DNA from: a virus
IMG/VR virus record: IMGVR_UViG_3300011114_000597
Location: 1-23,026 of that record
Reading direction: 5' to 3' (one strand)
DNA: 23,026 nt
In this document: piece after piece, positions 4,502 to 17,460 of the stretch
How positions within the stretch are numbered: the stretch's first letter is position 1
Layout: every line of letters starts with the position of its first letter
The notes under the pieces: model-generated
What the model was told of the DNA's origin: nothing
Database searches by the model: none
What the model saw: the letters and a program-made list of their open reading frames with translations, nothing else
Made by a program: the position numbers and the translations under genes

Positions 4502-4737
4502 CCGTGGATTTTCAATTCATCGCAAACCTTGCCGCGATTGTGGTGTTCGGAGTGATCGGGTATTTTTACCGTCAGTTGGTGAATGATATCCAAAAGCTCT
4601 CGTCCACGATCAATGACATGAAGGTTGACATGCCAACGAACTACGTCCGGAAAGACGAGCTTTCAACGCACATGGTTCGCATTGAAAACATGCTGAACAA
4701 GATTTTTGATAAACTCGACAACAAGGTGGATAAATAA
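4498..4737 (+). CDS. small membrane-anchored coiled-coil protein
   Basis: 79 residues: one N-terminal membrane segment at about residues 8-24 (IANLAAIVVFGVIGYFY), then a charged helical region with heptad-like spacing (LVNDIQKLSSTINDM, RIENMLNKIFDKLD). The layout recalls small phage proteins related to XhlA-type lysis accessories and other membrane-tethered coiled-coil proteins, but no family-defining motif is visible. ATGA overlap with the upstream gene shows tight coupling. It may assist lysis or anchor another phage protein at the inner membrane; function not established. Confidence 0.6.
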   Translation: MTVDFQFIANLAAIVVFGVIGYFYRQLVNDIQKLSSTINDMKVDMPTNYVRKDELSTHMVRIENMLNKIFDKLDNKVDK

Positions 4738-4738
4738 C

Positions 4739-6172
4739 ATGGTTACTTACACCGCAAACAAAAATCTTCAAATCCCCGCGTATGCTTCAACAAGTTGGAA
4801 CACTCCGGTTGATATTGATTGGAATCTTTTGGATCAAATTGGTGGTTCGCCTTATCCAATTTCAGTAGGCACAGGCGGGACAACTGATCTCCTTTATAAT
4901 GCGGCGGCAAACGCAAGTGGCGTTTATTGGTATTCGGCACAACAATTTACAATTACGGCAACTAGCACGTTGACTTCCAATGCAACAATTACCCTCCCCC
5001 AAAATCTTGTTGGTTCGGGAATTACCACAATGGGCGGAGCGTGGATCATCGTGAACGGGATAACAACTGCCCAATCCCAGACTGCGCTTTCAATTACGGT
5101 GTTTCCAACTTCTGGAAATTCATCTTTTACTCTTGGGACAACGGCTCCGATTGCGGGGACAATTGTTGTTCTTTCGTCCACGGGTGTGCTTCCTGGTGGG
5201 TTTTCCGCAGGTGTTGAATATTTCGTCATCAACCCTGTCGGGTCAACTTGCGATCTTTCCGCAACTTACGGCGGTTCAGCAATTTTGGCGACAAGCACAT
5301 CTCCTTATCTCGGCACATCAACGATGACAGCGAGATATGTTTTGAGGATTCAAAAATATGGAGGAGCGGCAAATTCTGGTGTTATTATTCAACCTGAAAC
5401 TAAAGGATACATTTATTTTAACGGGACTACGGTAAATTTTGCTGACGATAACATTATTAAAAAAATATCGTCAATTGATGGTGCGCTTTCTATCAGCGGC
5501 CCATTAACTACGGCTAGTACCATTACGACTTCTGATACGGTTACTTTGTCGGCAACCAATACCCCTGATGTGAAACTTACCAACATTATTGAAGATGGCA
5601 CATATGGTTCAACCACTTGGTCATCAACGTTTAATTACGACATTCTCACTCAATCCGTTTGGTACAACACGGCCTCTGCAACGTCCACTTTTACGCTTAA
5701 TATTCGTGGAAATTCTAACGTTGCTTTGTCAAGCGTCATTCCAAACACTGGAGACTTGGTAACTTGCGTTTATATTGTTGATTGCCCTGCGGCAGTCACT
5801 CTTTCTTTGCCAACAGCAAGTTGCACAGGGACGACTTTAACAACCACGGGGTCTCCTGCCCTTACAGTTGGAACGACAATAACTTCTTCCGGATCAATCT
5901 CCCTCGGAACAATCGTTAGTGGCAGCGGGAACACATGGACCGTTTCCATTGGTGGGACATACACTTCCCAAACAATGACTGCAACGTTTGTTGTGCCTTA
6001 TTGTTCAGCGGTTCAAATTGACGGGACAGCGACTGGCGTAACAACAATTTGGCAAGGCGGGGTGGCTCCAACTGCCGGAACCGCAAGCCAGAAAAATTCT
6101 TACACGTTTACGGTTATTAGGACTGCGGCTTCAACTTATACGGTTTTGGCAAGCATTGTTGGCTTTGCCTAA
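4739..6172 (+). CDS. fibre-like structural protein with beta-repeat module
   Basis: 477 residues from ATG 4739; an earlier in-frame start at 4706 would lie inside the previous gene and is not preferred. AAGGTGG at 4723-4729 provides a ribosome site. The N-terminus (TYTANKNLQIPAYASTSWN, then PVDIDWNLLDQIGG) looks like the anchor segment of environmental phage fibres. The middle carries a beta module at about 5125-5339 ('APIAGTIVVLSSTGVLPGGF', 'GVEYFVI') that is also found twice in the nozzle protein at 9520. The C-terminal end ('QIDGTATGVTTIWQGG', 'APTAGTAS', 'YTFTVIRTAASTYTVLAS') resembles terminal domains of other phage fibres or collar proteins. Probably a second fibre, collar or decoration protein. 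Confidence 0.65.
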   Translation: MVTYTANKNLQIPAYASTSWNTPVDIDWNLLDQIGGSPYPISVGTGGTTDLLYNAAANASGVYWYSAQQFTITATSTLTSNATITLPQNLVGSGITTMGGAWIIVNGITTAQSQTALSITVFPTSGNSSFTLGTTAPIAGTIVVLSSTGVLPGGFSAGVEYFVINPVGSTCDLSATYGGSAILATSTSPYLGTSTMTARYVLRIQKYGGAANSGVIIQPETKGYIYFNGTTVNFADDNIIKKISSIDGALSISGPLTTASTITTSDTVTLSATNTPDVKLTNIIEDGTYGSTTWSSTFNYDILTQSVWYNTASATSTFTLNIRGNSNVALSSVIPNTGDLVTCVYIVDCPAAVTLSLPTASCTGTTLTTTGSPALTVGTTITSSGSISLGTIVSGSGNTWTVSIGGTYTSQTMTATFVVPYCSAVQIDGTATGVTTIWQGGVAPTAGTASQKNSYTFTVIRTAASTYTVLASIVGFA

Positions 6173-8796: not shown

Positions 8797-9513
8797 ATGG
8801 TCGGATTAACATACTCAACCTACGTTGAACAAATTGCCACGATGGCGGTCGTGCAATCGACCGACACAAATTACCTCACCATCGTTCCAAGCATGATTGA
8901 TTACGCCGAATTGCGGATGCAACGCGATTTAGATTTTCTTTCGACGCAGATTAGCAATTCGTCTTATGCGTTTACTTCCGGCAACAACACGCTGACAATT
9001 CCAACATCATCGTTTGTGTCTTTGCAGACGTTTGAGGTTATTGATGGGGCAGGTAACTCAACTCCGCTTTTGGCGATTGGGAAAGAATACATTCAAAACG
9101 TGTACGGCGGCGGCTCAACGACAGGGTTGCCAAAATACTTTGCGGTTTATGGCGGGGACTCTGCAACGACAGGAAAAACGTCGCAGAATATCATTGTTGG
9201 TCCAACGCCAAATTCAGCATACGCCGTTCGGTTGACCGGAACAGTTCGATCGACGCCTTTATCTGCCGCAAACTCGACAACGTTCATCAGCGTTTATCTG
9301 CCGGATTTGTTCATCATGGCTTCAATGATTTATATTTCTGCTTATCAGCGCAACTTTGGCCGACAGTCCGACGATCCTCAGATGGCGCAAAGCTACGAAA
9401 GCCAATACCAAGCTCTCAAGGCAAGCGCGTTAGTTGAAGAAAACCGCAAAAAGTTTGAGGCAGCGGCTTGGACAGCCTACTCACCATCCCCTGTCGCTTC
9501 ACCAACGAGGTAA
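8797..9513 (+). CDS. second adaptor-like neck protein
   Basis: 238 residues. The N-terminal half is helical (TYVEQIATMAVV, MIDYAELRMQRDLDFLSTQ), then a beta-rich middle region (FTSGNNTLTIPTSSFVSLQ), and a C-terminal helical segment with 'YLPDLFIMASMIYISAYQRNF' and 'SYESQYQALKASALVEENRK'. This helix-beta-helix plan, with 'YAE.R..RDLD' near the start, matches a widespread phage adaptor-like family next to nozzle genes. It directly precedes the gp10-like nozzle gene, as expected for a connector that joins neck and nozzle. The genome therefore has two adaptor-like proteins, at 426 and here. Exact family name uncertain. Confidence 0.6.
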   Translation: MVGLTYSTYVEQIATMAVVQSTDTNYLTIVPSMIDYAELRMQRDLDFLSTQISNSSYAFTSGNNTLTIPTSSFVSLQTFEVIDGAGNSTPLLAIGKEYIQNVYGGGSTTGLPKYFAVYGGDSATTGKTSQNIIVGPTPNSAYAVRLTGTVRSTPLSAANSTTFISVYLPDLFIMASMIYISAYQRNFGRQSDDPQMAQSYESQYQALKASALVEENRKKFEAAAWTAYSPSPVASPTR

Positions 9514-9519
9514 CCTCCC

Positions 9520-12111
9520 ATGCCTCACGCAACGATGAAGCTGATCCCTGGTATTGATACCTACAAGACACCTGCTTTGAACGAGGCGGCGTTTTCAAAA
9601 TCTCAACTTATTCGTTTTGTGCCAGACCGCTCGGGTATGGGCCTCATTCAAAAAATGGGAGGTTGGGTTCAGTGGGCAACCCAAATTACCCCAAACATAA
9701 ATGAACTTCATCCTTGGGAAGACTTAAACACAAACAAACGTCTTGCTGTTGGAGCAAACGACAGCATTTCTTACATTGAATATAACGATGCGACGAACAC
9801 GGCTGGGAATCAAATTTTTATCACTCCAGAATCAACATCCTCAAATTCACCCGCATCCACATATACAGTAACAATTTCAAACGCTACTCCTGCCGAAGTC
9901 ACCGCTACAGGAAGCTCATATCCTGCTGGAACTCCGATTGTTTTTACCACGACAGGAGCTTTGCCTTCTCCGCTTGTTGTTGGAACAGTTTATTACGTCG
10001 CGACGAGCGTACCAGCACCGTACGCAACACCAAATAAGTTTGGCATCTCGACTACAATTGGTGGGGCTGGCATAGCAACAACAACAGCAGGAAGCGGAAC
10101 CCATACGGTTACTGTTCCATTTGCCTCAACAACAAGCGGCTCTTCAGTCGTAACCATTTATGACACAGGTTTGGGAGTTCAAACCGTAACTTTTACAACT
10201 GCCACCCCGACTGTTATTACTGCGGCAACTGCCCCAACATTAAATACGGCAGTGAATTTTCTTTCGTCAGGAACCCTTCCGACAGGAATATCCGCAGCGA
10301 CAACCTATTATGTTATTCCTTTGACTAGCACAACATTTAATCTTTCAACAACATCAGGCGGCACGGCGGATGTTAATGTTACTGTTGCTGGTACTGGAAC
10401 AATTAAAATGTATGCCCCAAACCAAATTCAAACGGGGTTTTCGGTTTTAATTAAAACTCCAATTAGCGTTGCAAATTTGTACATTTCAGGGGTTTATGAA
10501 GTTGTTACTCCGGTAGTTTCAAGTAGCTATTATAATATTTACAATATTAATGTTGGGATTTTGGCAACTTCAACGACAGGGATTTCAACAATTCCAGAAT
10601 TTACGCCAACAAATAATACTTCATTGGTGAACGTCAAATCAGCCAACCACCCTTATCAGAATGATTATACGGCGACGTTTTTAACATCTACGACATCGGC
10701 TGGGGTAACAATTTATGGCAACTATTTTGTTAGCTACGTTGATTCATCGAATTATAAAATAAACACATCTTCTGCCGCGACAAGCAACACTGCATTTTTC
10801 ATGAATAGCGGAAATGCTCTCTATCAATATTATTTTAATATTCCTTCAGCTTTCTCGGCGGCAGGGTATGGCGCGAACGCAAGCGGGTACGGCGGCGGTG
10901 GGTATGGAGCAGGAGAGCCTTTGGCTTCTTCTTCTGCCCCAACAATTACAACAACCGACTGGGTAATTAATAATTTTGGAGAAATTCTCACTGCGAACCC
11001 ACAAAATGGCCCAATTTATTATTGGTCTCCAAGCAGAAATACTTCAACAATGTATTTGTTGGACACTGCACCAATGACCAACACAGGCCATTTCATAGCG
11101 ATGCCTTCCCGACAAGTGGTTGCATATGGCTCGACTGCAACAGGCATTCAGGATCCGTTGTTGATCCGGTGGTCGGACGCCGGAGACGCAACCGTTTGGC
11201 AAGCCTCCGCAAATAATCAAGCCGGATCTTTCCGCATCGCTGAAGGAAGCCTAATTGTCGCAGGAATTCAGGCTTCGCAACAGGCTTTGATTTGGACAGA
11301 TTTGGCTGTTTGGGCAATGCAATATGTTGGCTATCCAAATGTGTTTGGGTTCAACAAGCTCGCAGACGGCGTTGGCTTAATCGCTAAAAAAGCGGTCGGC
11401 ATCCTCGGCAGAGCGACATACTGGATGTCGCCTGGAGGGTTTAATGTTTTGGCGGATGGCGGTCCGCAAGACATGGCTTGCCCTGTTTGGGATCAGATAT
11501 TCCAGAATTTGAACACAAGTTATTTGGATTTGATCCGTTGCGCGACAAACTCAATCTTTGACGAAGTAACTTGGTATTATCCCTCCGCAAGTGCAACTTA
11601 CAATGACTCTTACGTCAAATACAACACAACTACTCAGGCTTGGGACTACGGCACATTAAATCGAGTGGCTTGGTGTGACCAATCGGTTCTTGGCTCGCCA
11701 ATCGGGGCGGACAACAATGGTTACATCTGGCAGCATGAAATTGGTTACAATGCTGGCAATCAACCAATGGTGTCGTCGTTTGAAACGGGTTACATGCAGT
11801 TAAACGATGCAGATAATTTAATTTTCATTGATCAAATTTGGCCTGATTTCAAATGGCAAACAACTTCTGGGTCATCGCCCTCTGCAACTGTTTATTTGAC
11901 TTTTTATGGTTCGGATTATCCAGGTGATGTTCCAATCCAATACGGCCCGTACACCATGACCTCTTCTACGCAGTATCTAAGCGTTCGTATTCGAAATCGT
12001 TTGTTGCGTATTTCATGTTCCACGGCAAATGCGGCGGGGATTGCGGGCTCCGGAACATTCTTCCGTATTGGTGCTTTGCGTTACCGTGCTCAACTTGATG
12101 GGAAGTTTTGA
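9520..12111 (+). CDS. P22 gp10-like DNA-stabilization / tail nozzle protein
   Basis: 863 residues; P22 gp10 is about 472. Residues 1-95 (MKLIPGIDTYKTPALNEA, 'QLIRFVPDRSGMG', 'KMGGWVQW') and about 478-863 ('YYWSPSRN', 'MPSRQVVAYGS', 'RWSDAGDATVWQ', 'IWTDLAVWAMQYVG', 'ATYWMSPGGFNVL', 'WYYPSASATYNDSYVKYN', 'ALRYRAQLDGKF') form the conserved beta-propeller-like hub of podoviral nozzle proteins, which close the head after packaging and attach fibres. Between them lies a roughly 380-residue insertion with beta repeats, followed by a Gly/Tyr hinge 'GYGANASGYGGGGYGAG'. The stop overlaps the next start (TGATG). Confidence 0.72.
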   Translation: MPHATMKLIPGIDTYKTPALNEAAFSKSQLIRFVPDRSGMGLIQKMGGWVQWATQITPNINELHPWEDLNTNKRLAVGANDSISYIEYNDATNTAGNQIFITPESTSSNSPASTYTVTISNATPAEVTATGSSYPAGTPIVFTTTGALPSPLVVGTVYYVATSVPAPYATPNKFGISTTIGGAGIATTTAGSGTHTVTVPFASTTSGSSVVTIYDTGLGVQTVTFTTATPTVITAATAPTLNTAVNFLSSGTLPTGISAATTYYVIPLTSTTFNLSTTSGGTADVNVTVAGTGTIKMYAPNQIQTGFSVLIKTPISVANLYISGVYEVVTPVVSSSYYNIYNINVGILATSTTGISTIPEFTPTNNTSLVNVKSANHPYQNDYTATFLTSTTSAGVTIYGNYFVSYVDSSNYKINTSSAATSNTAFFMNSGNALYQYYFNIPSAFSAAGYGANASGYGGGGYGAGEPLASSSAPTITTTDWVINNFGEILTANPQNGPIYYWSPSRNTSTMYLLDTAPMTNTGHFIAMPSRQVVAYGSTATGIQDPLLIRWSDAGDATVWQASANNQAGSFRIAEGSLIVAGIQASQQALIWTDLAVWAMQYVGYPNVFGFNKLADGVGLIAKKAVGILGRATYWMSPGGFNVLADGGPQDMACPVWDQIFQNLNTSYLDLIRCATNSIFDEVTWYYPSASATYNDSYVKYNTTTQAWDYGTLNRVAWCDQSVLGSPIGADNNGYIWQHEIGYNAGNQPMVSSFETGYMQLNDADNLIFIDQIWPDFKWQTTSGSSPSATVYLTFYGSDYPGDVPIQYGPYTMTSSTQYLSVRIRNRLLRISCSTANAAGIAGSGTFFRIGALRYRAQLDGKF
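9859..10416 (+). repeat. tandem beta-repeat module inside nozzle gene
   Basis: Two protein repeats of about 80-86 residues lie at 9859-10116 and 10177-10416. They share the pattern 'P..VTATG/A..P..GT.V.F...G.LP..L..GT.YYV', then '.F..STT.GG', then 'AGTGT..'. A third copy of the same pattern is in the fibre-like gene at about 5125-5339. The copies are similar in protein but not in DNA, so divergence is old. Confidence 0.65.
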
Positions 12112-12468: not shown

Positions 12469-13254
12469 ATGCCGTTGAAAAAAGGCTCTTCCCAAAAAAC
12501 AGTCAGCTCCAATATTTCGGAGATGATGCGTTCTGGCCGTTCGCAGGACCAAGCCATTGCGGCGGCGTTGAACACCGCTCGGAACACAAAAGCAATGGGC
12601 GGTGGGTTGTATGCCAACATTCACGCCAAGCGCGAGCGCATCGCCCACGGTTCAAAAGAACGCATGCGGAAACCAAATTCCAAAGGTGCGCCAACTGCTG
12701 ACGCTTTCAAACAATCGGCTCGGACGGCGAAGGCGGGTGGTGGCCCATTTGCCGACATGTCTTACACCAAAGCTGACATGTCATATACAAAGCCTGATTT
12801 TCCTTATCCGGTGAATAAAGTTCATGAAGGACCAATTCATTCTCCGGTCGCCGGACGAACGGACCACCTACCGATGAACGTTGCTTCAGGCTCGTACGTC
12901 ATCCCTGCCGACATCATTTCGGCCATGGGTGAAGGCAACACAATGGCAGGGTTCAAGGTCGCCAGAAAGATGTTCTCCTCACAACCTTACATGCAGAACG
13001 ACAAACAGCCCTACGACCCTTCTCCAAGCCCGTATGCCGAAGGCAAACCATACGGCGCAAGAGCATCTGGAGGAGCAACTCCTGTAGAGATTGTGGCGGC
13101 GGGTGGAGAATATGTTATAAAGCCTGATGATGTTGTTAAAATTGGCAATGGCGACATGGATCATGGGCATAACGTTCTCGATCATTTTGTTAAACAATAT
13201 CGAAAGAGAACTATCGAGACGTTGAAAAAGTTACCTGGCCCTAAGAGAGATTGA
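12469..13254 (+). CDS. glycine-motif virion-associated protein with internal repeat
   Basis: 261 residues from ATG 12469, with GTGAGGT upstream as ribosome site; an open frame extends further upstream but overlaps the previous gene heavily. The N-terminus 'MPLKKGSSQKTVSSNISEMM' followed by 'GRSQDQAIAAALNTAR' is a short helical module seen at the start of many phage proteins. The middle is basic and low in structure. Two copies of a 'YVIP.D....G.GN...G' motif lie at residues about 135-162 (SGSYVIPADIISAMGEGN) and 205-233 (GGEYVIKPDDVVKIGNGD), a known motif in phage tape-measure and internal proteins. The basic C-terminus (KQYRKRTIETLKKLPGPKRD) could contact DNA. Probably an internal virion or assembly protein. 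Confidence 0.6.
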   Translation: MPLKKGSSQKTVSSNISEMMRSGRSQDQAIAAALNTARNTKAMGGGLYANIHAKRERIAHGSKERMRKPNSKGAPTADAFKQSARTAKAGGGPFADMSYTKADMSYTKPDFPYPVNKVHEGPIHSPVAGRTDHLPMNVASGSYVIPADIISAMGEGNTMAGFKVARKMFSSQPYMQNDKQPYDPSPSPYAEGKPYGARASGGATPVEIVAAGGEYVIKPDDVVKIGNGDMDHGHNVLDHFVKQYRKRTIETLKKLPGPKRD

Positions 13255-13256
13255 TT

Positions 13257-13769
13257 ATGGAAAAAGAACTCAGCGTTCGTGTTGGCACGCCGGAAGACAT
13301 CGATGGTATGATGAAACTGGCTACTGCGGCATGCGAAGAGAACGGTTTAACCAATCCTAATCCGATGAAGCTCTTGGGCGAGCTTTGGGCGGGGTTGACA
13401 AGAGATCACGGGATTGTCGGTATTATTGGCAATCCTGAAGAGCAATTTGAAGCCGCGATCCTATTGCGCACAGAGTCTCTTTGGTACTCGGACGATTTGA
13501 CAATTGTCGAACGGGCAATTTTCGTTCATCCTGATTACCGAAGCGCAAAAGGTGGTCGGGCAAGAAAACTCTGTGAATTTGCAAAACAAGCTGCAGAAGT
13601 ACTACAATTGCCATTGGTGATTGGGATCTTGAGCTCTCATAGGGCTGAAGGCAAGGTTAGACTCTACGAGCGGCAATTTGGCCCACAGTCGGGTGCTTAT
13701 TGGATCTATGGCAAAAAGACAGGCGATTGGGCGACAGACGCACAACCTGAGAACGCGACGGAGCACTGA
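13257..13769 (+). CDS. GNAT-family N-acetyltransferase
   Basis: 170 residues; ATG 13257 follows the upstream stop by two bases. The protein begins with 'LSVRVGTPEDIDGMMKLA', a typical GNAT first strand and helix. It has the acetyl-CoA-binding region 'VHPDYRSAKGGRARKL' at residues 90-105, a slightly degenerate form of R/Q-x-x-G-x-G/A. The C-terminal part has 'VIGILSSHRAEGKVRLYERQFGPQSGAYWIYGK', as in the final strands of the fold. It should transfer an acetyl group from acetyl-CoA to an amine, but the substrate is unknown. Its place between an internal-protein gene and the ejection-protein genes is a recurring arrangement in environmental podoviruses and suggests a target in the virion or in the newly infected cell. 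Confidence 0.75.
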   Translation: MEKELSVRVGTPEDIDGMMKLATAACEENGLTNPNPMKLLGELWAGLTRDHGIVGIIGNPEEQFEAAILLRTESLWYSDDLTIVERAIFVHPDYRSAKGGRARKLCEFAKQAAEVLQLPLVIGILSSHRAEGKVRLYERQFGPQSGAYWIYGKKTGDWATDAQPENATEH

Positions 13770-13770
13770 C

Positions 13771-16700
13771 ATGGGCGGGAAAACCGGAACCACGAGTTCA
13801 ACGACCAAAATCCCTCCAGAGGTTATGGCGCGTTACGAGGCCGTGAACAAACGCGCAGAAGAAGTTGCTGCGAAGCCCTTTCAGCAATACGGCACAACGC
13901 CGGATCAATTTGTTGCGCAACTGAACCAACAGCAAAAAACAGGTCAGGCTGGCATGAACCAGTATGCCAATGCCGCACAACCTGTTTTGAACCAAGTTCA
14001 GCAAGGCTACACTCCCGAAGGTTTTTCTCAGGGCGTGAAGGGTTACATGAACCCTTACCTCGAGAGTGCGGTCGCCTCGACAAGAAATCAAATGCAAAAT
14101 GTTGCGGGTCAACAGCAAGCTCAGATGAAGGGATCCGCGATCGGGCAAGGCGCGTTTGGTGGCGACCGCTCCAACATTGGTATGGGCAATTTAATCAATC
14201 AGCAGAACCTTGCCCTCGGTCAGACGATTGGTGGCATGGAGTCGCAAGGTTTCCAGAACGCCGCACAGAATTATATGTCAGGTCTTGGCCAACGTGGCCA
14301 AACAGCCCTTGCCGCTCAACAGGCGGGGCTACAGGGGGCTCAGGCGCAGATTGGCGCAGGTACCCTTGGTCAGCAGACTGAACAGGCTGGAAAGACCGCG
14401 CTGTACAATCAGTTCCTGCAGGAACAAGCATATCCGTATCAGGTCGCTCAGTTCCTCGCGAACATCGCAATGGGCACAGGCGCGTTGTCCGGCTCGAGCA
14501 CAACCACGACCCAGCCAATGCCATTCTTCTCGGACGAGCGGCTCAAGGATGACATTGAAAAGATCGGCAAAACGTTTGACGGTCAAGACATCATCAAGTT
14601 CCGTTACAAAGGCGAGGACGGGCCTAAGCAAATTGGCTTGTCGGCGCAGAACGTTGAAAAGCACCATCCCGAAGCTGTTGGCTTGGCTAAGGGCTACAAG
14701 ACTGTTGACTACGATGCGGCAACAAAAGACGCTGCCAAGCGTGGCCATTTTGAAGAAGGTGGTTTGGTGTCTGAAGGCGGTGCTGTTGGCATGCAACACA
14801 TGGGACAAGGTTTTGCTTCAGGAGGCGGAGCTTACGATCCTTACGACCCATACTCAATTTACAACATCCTTTCCCGTCAACAAGGGTTCTTCGAGGGTGG
14901 AGAGCGTAGCCATGTTCCCACCGCTCGCGGGTTGTCTGGTGGCATTGGCAAGCATGGTCGCGTTCCGGAGGCGAGCTTGCCTGTTGGAAGGCTCATGACT
15001 CCCGATAGCGCACCTCCTATTCCAGAAAGCCTTTTGAAGCAGGGTCTTGGGACTGCAACAGATTTTGCAGATCTGGCAACAAAAGGAAAAGATCTTTATA
15101 AATTTTATAAAGATTTGGATAAAAAAGAAGAAGCGCGTGGTGGTCTTGTAGGGTACGCTGCCGGAGGAATGCCTTACGATTTGGATTCCGATCCTAAAAA
15201 ACTTGACATTCCGGACGACACATCAAAATTTAAAATGCCTGAGCAAAAGCACCTTCCTGGAGCCATGCAAGACCCGACAATGAAAGCCATCATGGACATG
15301 GCGAAGCTCGCTTCTGGGTTCATGAAGAACGGCGGACGTGCGGGCTACGCGACAGATGGCGCGGTCGATGAATCAAGCCCTGAATATTGGAAAAATTACT
15401 CAATCGAGTCTGCCAAACGCGCAGGTCATAAAGACCCACAATTTGCGGCAAAAGTTTATCATGGGGAAAGCGGGTTTAATCCCTTGGCGGAAGGAGATGA
15501 CAAGTCTTCTTACGGCATTGCGCAATTGCATTATGGGAATACATCAAAACAATTTTCAAAGCCTGGTCTTGGAGATGAGTTTACCAAGCAAACAGGTTTT
15601 GATTTGAGAGACCCAGAAGTTCGGAAAAACCCAGACGTTATTCGCGCTTCGATTGATTGGTCAAACGATTACGCCGCAAAAAATGGTTGGAAGCCTTGGA
15701 CAGTTGCTCGGAAACTTATGGGCGAAGGAGATCTTCCTGCCAAAAACGCAACACCTTCCGCCGACGTAGGCGAAGGTGGGTTGAACCCACCTAAATCTCA
15801 ATCAATGATTGATAGACTTGCTGAATCAGTTGGGTTTTCAAAATCAAGCGCACAAGACGTAAAAGGTAAAAACCGTGAAGGTCCGGATTCCACCGATCTT
15901 CTGTTGTCAGTTTTGGGCGGCGTTGGCACAATGGCTTCGTCAAACAGTCCGTATCTTGGTGCCGCACTATTGCAAGGTCTTGGCGGAGGCGCGAAGACGT
16001 ATGCAGGGCTCCGTGGCCAGTCTCTCGAGCGCGGCCTTGCGCAACAGGGAATTGATATTACTGGGCGGACCCAAGGGATCCAAGCTCTTAAATATCTGCA
16101 AGATCGTTTTGAACCTCTCATGGATGCAACTGGTAGTAAAATTATTGGCTATCGTGATCTGAATGGAGGAGAAGTGAGCGTTGAAGAGTATGGCCGCATA
16201 ATGAGTAGTGCTGCCAACGAACTTAATTTGTCTTCTTCAATAACCGGACTTGGCGGCGCAGAAAAAACGTCTCCATCCGGCACAACTGAAGTTGGTGGGG
16301 AAGGTCTTGGAGGGGCGGGTAAAGTAATAGAAGGCGGGGGCACCATAGACGAAGGTGGTCTTGGATCTGTTGGAGAAAAACCTGTTGCGGAAGAAAAAAC
16401 AGTTGATTTGGGCGAGGGGAAAATTGTTCCACTTTCCTATTTGTCAGATCCGGCTGTGATCCAATCGACAATTGAAAAATTAAACCGCCAACTTGGAGTT
16501 GCAAGAGGAGCACAAGCAGATGTTATTAAAGGAGAAATTGAAAAACTGAACAATGTGCAACTTCAAATTGCGTCAGTAGCTAACACAATCCAAACTGTTT
16601 ATGACCCGCAAACGGGGCAAAAAATTGGGATTACTGGCGTTGATTATCTCAAAGGGTTGGCAGATGCCGCGGAAAGTGGGACGCCTGGTGAATTTACATA

Positions 16701-17460
16701 TAAGGGACAAAAAGTTGTAACGGGTGAAGACCCTACGGCTAAAGCCAATGTTGACATGTTTAATGACCAGCTAAAGGAATCAAATAATTTCGTCAGATCT
16801 TGGAAATCAGATCTTCGCCCTCGCCTTATAAGCCTTGCTGGTATTTATCAGCAATGGAAAGGTGCAGGCCGAGGTTCACAAGGTTTTGCGCAACTTAATG
16901 ATTTTATGAGAAATATTTTTGGAATAAAAGGATTTGATGCCGAAGCGGCACCAAATTTTGATGCGGCAGCAAAAGACGCTATGTTGATTGCTATTGCAAG
17001 AACGAATGAATTTGCAAAATCAGCCCCCGCAACAGGTGGCGAAATGGCAATGGTAACCGTTCCTGACCCAGAAAAAAATCCTGATGCTCTGTATAAAAAC
17101 ATTACAGACGCAATAGGGTATGGAGATCTTGGTTACAAGAGGTCTTCTGAATTCATTAAAAATAAACCTCGTGATGTTTCTGTATTCAATATGAATTTTG
17201 GAGAAAACCCTGAAAATAATGCTGATTTGTTTAAAGAAAGAGCCAGAAAAGAAATTAAACCTTTTGCAGGTTCTAACCCTAAAGTACTTGAAAATATGGG
17301 GCTTGGAACTCCAAAAGAACCAGTTATTCAAGACGATAACACTGTTGCTATTCCCCCAAACACACCAAACAGGGAAGTTCTTAGAATAATCAGAGAAACG
17401 CCAAAAGGTGTTATGGTTATTCTCCCTGACGGGCGAGAAATCCAAGGCGAAAAGGAGTAA
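13771..17460 (+). CDS. large ejection-type virion protein with S74 and lytic transglycosylase-like domains
   Basis: 1229 residues from ATG 13771, one base after the GNAT stop. Residues 1-253: Gln/Ala/Gly-rich helical region starting 'KIPPEVMARYEAVNKRAEE'. Residues about 254-325: an S74 intramolecular chaperone/autoprotease core with 'SDERLK' (Ser254 and Lys259 match the catalytic dyad), 'IKFRYK' and 'IGLSAQNVEKHHPEAV'. Residues about 326-530: Gly-rich linkers, including 'GGLVGYAAGGM' and 'GGRAGYATDG'. Residues about 534-650: an SLT-like domain with 'YHGESGFNPLAEG' (Glu566 as likely catalytic acid) and 'SSYGIAQLHYG'. The rest is helical and Gly-rich linkers. It is probably ejected with DNA and locally opens peptidoglycan. 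S74 in mid-protein is unusual. Confidence 0.75.
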   Translation: MGGKTGTTSSTTKIPPEVMARYEAVNKRAEEVAAKPFQQYGTTPDQFVAQLNQQQKTGQAGMNQYANAAQPVLNQVQQGYTPEGFSQGVKGYMNPYLESAVASTRNQMQNVAGQQQAQMKGSAIGQGAFGGDRSNIGMGNLINQQNLALGQTIGGMESQGFQNAAQNYMSGLGQRGQTALAAQQAGLQGAQAQIGAGTLGQQTEQAGKTALYNQFLQEQAYPYQVAQFLANIAMGTGALSGSSTTTTQPMPFFSDERLKDDIEKIGKTFDGQDIIKFRYKGEDGPKQIGLSAQNVEKHHPEAVGLAKGYKTVDYDAATKDAAKRGHFEEGGLVSEGGAVGMQHMGQGFASGGGAYDPYDPYSIYNILSRQQGFFEGGERSHVPTARGLSGGIGKHGRVPEASLPVGRLMTPDSAPPIPESLLKQGLGTATDFADLATKGKDLYKFYKDLDKKEEARGGLVGYAAGGMPYDLDSDPKKLDIPDDTSKFKMPEQKHLPGAMQDPTMKAIMDMAKLASGFMKNGGRAGYATDGAVDESSPEYWKNYSIESAKRAGHKDPQFAAKVYHGESGFNPLAEGDDKSSYGIAQLHYGNTSKQFSKPGLGDEFTKQTGFDLRDPEVRKNPDVIRASIDWSNDYAAKNGWKPWTVARKLMGEGDLPAKNATPSADVGEGGLNPPKSQSMIDRLAESVGFSKSSAQDVKGKNREGPDSTDLLLSVLGGVGTMASSNSPYLGAALLQGLGGGAKTYAGLRGQSLERGLAQQGIDITGRTQGIQALKYLQDRFEPLMDATGSKIIGYRDLNGGEVSVEEYGRIMSSAANELNLSSSITGLGGAEKTSPSGTTEVGGEGLGGAGKVIEGGGTIDEGGLGSVGEKPVAEEKTVDLGEGKIVPLSYLSDPAVIQSTIEKLNRQLGVARGAQADVIKGEIEKLNNVQLQIASVANTIQTVYDPQTGQKIGITGVDYLKGLADAAESGTPGEFTYKGQKVVTGEDPTAKANVDMFNDQLKESNNFVRSWKSDLRPRLISLAGIYQQWKGAGRGSQGFAQLNDFMRNIFGIKGFDAEAAPNFDAAAKDAMLIAIARTNEFAKSAPATGGEMAMVTVPDPEKNPDALYKNITDAIGYGDLGYKRSSEFIKNKPRDVSVFNMNFGENPENNADLFKERARKEIKPFAGSNPKVLENMGLGTPKEPVIQDDNTVAIPPNTPNREVLRIIRETPKGVMVILPDGREIQGEKE
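14530..14740 (+). other. S74 chaperone/autoprotease domain inside the 13771 gene
   Basis: Codes for 'SDERLKDD' then 'GQDIIKFRYKGEDG', 'QIGLSAQNVEKHHPEAV' and 'YKTVDYDA'. In fibre and spike proteins this domain trimerises, folds the upstream shaft, and self-cleaves just before the serine. Here cleavage would fall between Phe253 and Ser254. The domain is about 70 residues, the short core form. Confidence 0.75.

Follow-up and report, generated by a model that had tools for sequence, protein, structure and literature searches.

The stretch of DNA analysed here, referred to throughout as the window, is a virus fragment of 23,026 bases (IMG/VR record IMGVR_UViG_3300011114_000597) that carries a cluster of tail genes from a short-tailed phage, composed of a head-tail adaptor gene, a nozzle gene and then further virion genes. 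Nozzles are usually regarded as conserved plumbing. In this study, we describe the nozzle gene of the window, whose product is interrupted within its propeller by a beta insert of about 345 residues (approximately residues 104-449), and the way in which this insert is built and varies among relatives.

The open reading frame (ORF) 9520-12111 encodes a podovirus nozzle of the P22 gp10/SU10 type. By profile it belongs to the family phrog_3287 ("virion structural protein"), whose 524 profile positions are stretched over residues 6-836 of the protein, and a profile of residues 478-863 made from 14 proteins retrieved two nozzles with solved structures, those of Pa223 (E 3.9e-10) and VP1 (E 3e-8). 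The AlphaFold model of the whole protein (35-sequence alignment; predicted local distance difference test (pLDDT) 78.8, predicted template modelling score (pTM) 0.72) is weak in two stretches, residues 1-47 and 445-468. Foldseek matched it to the nozzles of SU10, Pa223, VP1, cyanophage A4, P22 and crAss001, with SU10 at the top, and in structural comparisons with VIA 417 residues were aligned to the Pa223 nozzle at 6.5 Å and 439 to the SU10 nozzle at 7.3 Å (Z 26.8). Given this pTM and Z scores of 24-29 to solved nozzles, the protein has the fold of a seven-bladed propeller plus platform, and the adjacent adaptor gene expected of a gp10-like podovirus nozzle is present directly upstream. Searches of the nozzle DNA against phages by blastn and of the whole protein against Pfam yielded nothing useful. 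By homology to the hexameric nozzles, the protein is presumably a hexamer and would therefore present six arms per virion.

Sequence identity of the relatives to the window falls between residues ~81 and ~480, and the insert modelled alone is predicted with good scores (pLDDT 86.9, pTM 0.84) as an almost entirely beta structure. An earlier note, made from the letters of the window, had placed a large beta insertion of a gp10-like nozzle at residues 96-477; alignment, structure prediction and insert-free relatives confirm the insertion and narrow its borders. The note was also right that P22 gp10 has no insert of such size, since its chains comprise 470-471 residues. The strand order in the model puts the insert between propeller blades 2 and 3, the site also used in SU10 and crAss001, although this position is a prediction. 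Ser and Thr together account for 30.9% of residues 96-477 compared to 13.7% and 16.1% in the flanks, and charged residues for 3.7% compared to 17.9% and 12.4%. The reported richness in Ser, Thr and ACA thus holds for the residues and for ACA codons (34 of 382, versus 2 of 95 and 12 of 386 in the flanks). As a DNA signal it was rejected: ACA counted in any frame is barely enriched (34.0 per kb versus 31.6 and 25.0), and the signal is therefore a Thr-codon effect. A Gly/Tyr stretch, which had been taken as a hinge of the insert, was likewise reassigned. It has an equivalent in one-B relatives (see below) and in the insert-free 493-residue nozzle of MW202879, where the loop reads GYGYGSYGAYAYG, and it is for this reason part of the conserved nozzle.

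The insert is composed of two kinds of domains, designated A and B (Table 1). A1 and A2 are homologous repeats of about 80 residues, as the earlier note had recognised, and the A1 profile retrieves A2 with E 1.8e-16. What the note had described as further Ig-like (immunoglobulin-like) stretches proved to be two mutually homologous domains, B1 and B2, the former split by A2. This nesting was examined with a profile of B1 derived from ten relatives whose B1 contains no A module: the intact chain gave pieces of 12.3 and 10.1 bits, and omission of residues 218-300 raised the score to 37.6 bits, whereas control excisions of 84 residues gave 23.1 bits 12 residues downstream, 16.7 bits 12 residues upstream and at most 16.3 bits further off. 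A2 is nested within B1. In the VIA comparison A2 (model positions 120-201, i.e. residues 219-300) resembles the E1 FCCH domain of 7sol with a Z of 8.4, which is a likeness of fold only; E1 FCCH (PF16190) was not among the Pfam matches of the A modules, and the A profile found nothing below E 0.2 in the PDB.

Table 1 Features of the nozzle gene and related elements in the window
Feature	Position	Strand	Evidence or remark
Nozzle gene	9520..12111	+	863 residues; phrog_3287 (E 4.6e-58); Foldseek SU10 nozzle (2.3e-17); VIA match to the Pa223 nozzle (Z 29.0)
Head-tail adaptor gene, directly upstream of nozzle gene	8797..9513	+	Pfam SU10_adaptor (1.3e-16; 62.1 bits, cut-off 27)
N-terminal hub, residues 1-103, comprising the beginning of the platform and the first propeller blades	9520..9828	+	Conserved; strand order in model; residues 1-47 of low confidence
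Module A1, residues 106-200, ahead of B1	9835..10119	+	A profile
Domain B1, first part, residues 201-217	10120..10170	+	Completes B1 with residues 301-357 once A2 is omitted
Module A2, residues 218-300, nested in B1; E1 FCCH-like small beta-barrel	10171..10419	+	Excision peak at 218-300; VIA match to 7sol
Domain B1, second part, residues 301-357	10420..10590	+	B profile match 288-357
Domain B2, residues 359-450, endosialidase beta-barrel-like	10594..10869	+	Profile, structure and Pfam comparisons
Gly/Tyr loop, residues 449-465, ancestral nozzle part	10864..10914	+	Present in insert-free MW202879 and one-B relatives; pLDDT <50
Rest of the propeller and the C-terminal platform, residues 478-863	10951..12108	+	Alignment and model
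A-type module within a second structural ORF (4706-6172)	5108..5317	+	A profile (4e-19)
Segment of ORF 4706-6172 with homologue in nozzle inserts of L050/L044 and L046	5816..5985	+	Identity over 170 bases in blastn 71.8% and 70.6%

For the comparison with relatives, 65 distinct full-length proteins were used, namely the window protein and 64 relatives (locus L047 from GenBank, the others from IMG/VR contigs), together with 14 further proteins from bacterial genomes, including contigs of Rhizobium, Bradyrhizobium and Bosea. The segment equivalent to residues 104-480 ranges from 202 to 556 residues across the 65 proteins, while the C-terminal core (equivalent to residues 481-863) has 376-402 residues in most of them and up to 590 where modules have entered it; the full length is thus not conserved in the manner of a core fold. 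In all 64 relatives, identity to the window is lower in the insert segment than in this core. The B1-B2 pair of about 200 residues is present in all 65 viral and all 14 genome-derived proteins (79 of 79), although in A2-bearing proteins the scan with the B profile scored the second part of B1 only and missed the first, and in the simplest genome-derived proteins the pair plus the loop amounts to 199-210 residues. Furthermore, 22 phage records match the nozzle, of which 13 were examined. Seven of these nozzles (from cultured or named phages; 492-505 residues) have no B match and 130-134 residues before the core; that of MW202481 (536 residues) has no B domain and one F module, and that of HTVC023P (711 residues) has no B match by profile. 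One B domain was found in DSL-LC04, CRP-901 and, weakly, Pag-Yong1, and two in MW202675 (identical to L047). The alignment check suggested in the earlier note thus finds the insert variable in length and absent from relatives of this kind, but the B pair conserved across the subfamily. By eye, the nozzle of Pelagibacter phage HTVC023P (L120, 1119-3254) seems B-like with a different module inside, and Roseobacter phage CRP-901 carries a similar module ahead of its B domain, which suggests that nesting occurs in distant lineages, too.

Additional modules (A, F, G and N) were found in 59 of the 65 proteins and in three of the 14 genome-derived ones. They form 16 combinations of module and site, for which a tree of the core with 91 tips requires a minimum of 20 changes, both figures being approximate since the placements were assigned by reading the sequences, L034-L036 were counted as A1-bearing although their match was weaker (L034, 44 bits), and the module of L044/L050 was tallied under G_inA1 though treated as a fifth kind. 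A1 and A2 were each gained once, are common to 35 of the 91 tips and are fixed in the clade of the window. Among 13 pairs compared, the ratio of nonsynonymous to synonymous substitution rates (dN/dS) was computable for 11, synonymous divergence of the core being saturated in the other two, and in all 11 it was higher in the insert than in the C-terminal core, ranging from 0.30 versus 0.07 to 0.12 versus 0.11 (L005-L014); for the window and L050 the values were 0.23 and 0.07. In L042 and L029-L031, the propeller itself has taken up A or F modules, close to residues 733 and 690 of the window protein. In L023 (4995-7783), the nozzle gene appears as two overlapping ORFs of 450 and 497 residues, possibly because of a frameshift or an error of assembly within the region of the insert.

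Modules of the insert are shared with tail-fibre and other structural genes. A-type modules occur in 19 phage records, many of them with the annotation tail fibre, tail or minor tail protein, from unrelated phages with the hosts Leptospira, Sinorhizobium, Rhizobium and Microbacterium, and one is located in a second structural ORF of the window (4706-6172). The nozzles of L044/L050 (one contig) and L046, whose N-terminal hubs are 99% and 92% identical to that of the window, contain 62 additional residues inside A1. In L050, 57 of these show 82% amino acid identity to residues 371-427 of the window ORF 4706-6172 (71.8% for the DNA, with 91.5 bits compared to at most 35.6 bits in 200 codon shuffles); nozzle and another structural gene therefore share a module within this phage group. 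A wholesale swap of the insert in L044/L050, initially indicated by a match that covered no more than residues 1-286, was rejected in favour of the 62-residue addition plus divergence, and assignment of the added module to the G kind was rejected on a G profile value of E 0.53. The G, N and L050 modules had no match among phages, and no copies of the nozzle insert were found elsewhere in the same locus, most loci comprising short flanks only.

Endosialidases of phages contain a small beta-barrel that sits inserted in the propeller of a tail protein. This polysialic-acid-binding barrel is the nearest known relative of the B domains by sequence and fold, at a level below the Pfam cut-off. B2 (residues 358-431) superimposes on the barrel of the K1F endosialidase with a VIA Z of 8.8 (2.0 Å over 70 residues), the B2 profile ranks the phi92 endosialidase first among PDB sequences (E 0.0046), and PF12195 is the commonest Pfam match among 22 B2 domains (six of 22, best E 2.2e-5). 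The structure, profile and Pfam searches converge, each of them being weak or marginal when taken alone. The K1F endosialidase has three polysialic-acid sites, of which the beta-barrel is one, and the barrel is also a hotspot of host discrimination (PMC12632334).

Domains inserted in nozzles are already known from SU10 and crAss001; new here are a build that is nested and exchangeable and the link to endosialidases. SU10 gp17 (PMC9509320; 7z47, 7z4b) shares with the window protein the overall fold and the adjoining SU10-type adaptor gene, but it carries four consecutive Ig-like domains instead of two endosialidase-barrel-like domains with nested modules; the likeness established is that of the nozzles as a whole. 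The model of the insert alone was matched to endosialidase and E1 FCCH; SU10 was not in the list, an absence that excludes nothing. The crAss001 muzzle gp44 (7qol; VIA Z 24.7) has an Ig-like domain located between blades 2 and 3, as well as insertions that make its length vary among relatives (PMC10172136); it differs from the window protein by a "crass" domain of its own and other inserted domains and is far more distant. P22 gp10 and the nozzles of Pa223 (9nwi) and VP1 (gp16; 8zkk) share the core fold, but have 470-521 residues and no comparable insert. The endosialidase barrel (PF12195; K1F gp17, phi92), though the best relative of the B domains in structure, sequence and Pfam searches, is part of an enzyme spike rather than of a nozzle. 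In the literature searched, with subscription journals mostly outside it, neither nested modules nor endosialidase-type barrels were found for podovirus nozzles, and the available text of a paper on domain shuffling in phage proteins (PMC10684548) does not mention nozzles.

We tentatively favour, with a confidence just short of even, the interpretation that the insert is an extension of the nozzle which contacts the host surface and probably binds glycans weakly. The hexameric nozzle would close the tail, and the distal arm would sit between the early and the later propeller blades. Its stable base would be the B1-B2 pair with its relationship to the polysialic-acid-binding barrel, and small modules from a tail-fibre pool (A, F, G, N and one more) would have been inserted in frame into surface loops, in the window protein with A1 ahead of B1 and A2 within it. 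The B barrels would bind glycan with low affinity, the extra modules would change reach and surface, and the arm may move upon ejection, like the domains of the SU10 nozzle. The sugar-binding collar proposed in the earlier note gains indirect support from the endosialidase link, whereas an extra fibre or a fibre-docking arm gained no specific support. Several results weigh against surface contact by glycan-binding barrels: K1F endosialidases appeared only at E 3.1 in the PDB profile search, B2 of the window had no PF12195 match at E≤0.1 (only DUF2846 and Cadherin-like), B2 of L112 scored 16.6 bits for PF12195 where the gathering cut-off is 35, Z scores near 9 are just above the level of unrelated models, and the insert-only model had no Foldseek match in the PDB reaching E 0.001. 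In addition, A1 and A2 mark one clade without varying inside it, which speaks against a hypervariable region. A stronger version, in which the nozzle is a glycan-reading organ of receptor contact with six paired-barrel copies around the DNA exit, retuned in reach and specificity by nested tail-fibre modules, we regard as doubtful.

Second in rank is a purely structural extension, a serious alternative though not a probable one, in which the arm makes the exit channel longer or acts as its gate, changes its arrangement upon ejection and binds no glycans, like the SU10 domains or the crAss001 muzzle. The inserted domain and length-variable insertions of that muzzle and the top rank of SU10 in the Foldseek search are in line with it, but for a channel lining one would expect the slow evolution seen in the core, whereas the insert evolves faster and changes in length and modules, and the B domains point to a glycan-binding barrel. 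That the insert anchors a tail fibre or spike appears improbable: domain 4 of the SU10 nozzle does touch the short tail fibre and modules are common to nozzle and tail-fibre genes, but the main fibre dock of SU10 is formed by a different loop, which bears three tryptophans and lies at blade 1 (PMC9509320). No fibre gene covarying with the insert was found, a search aimed at one not having been made. Least likely of all would be a largely neutral accretion of self-folding modules that recombine into exposed loops and are tolerated while adding little function. Several kinds of modules do occur at many loops, even in the propeller, and relatives manage without them; dN/dS of the insert is, however, well below 1, and A1 plus A2 have been retained in 35 tips and B1 plus B2 in 79. 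Surface contact is accordingly placed first. This nozzle evolves like a tail fibre, with a stable inserted barrel pair and exchangeable modules nested in domains with the frame kept. Should the barrels bind glycans, recognition of the host would be located on the exit channel itself, and binding and ejection would be linked in one protein. The relatives, which range from nozzles without insert up to 1183 residues, provide a natural series for comparison.

Two further ORFs lie downstream of the nozzle gene. ORF 13678-17460 encodes 1260 residues with a Peptidase_S74 domain (endosialidase chaperone) at residues 285-334 (Pfam 2.8e-7); this domain is usually located at the C terminus, but here more than 900 residues follow it. 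ORF 13251-13769 encodes a GNAT-like acetyltransferase (Pfam 0.00053, below the cut-off), and acetyltransferases are annotated downstream of the nozzle gene in several named relatives, too.
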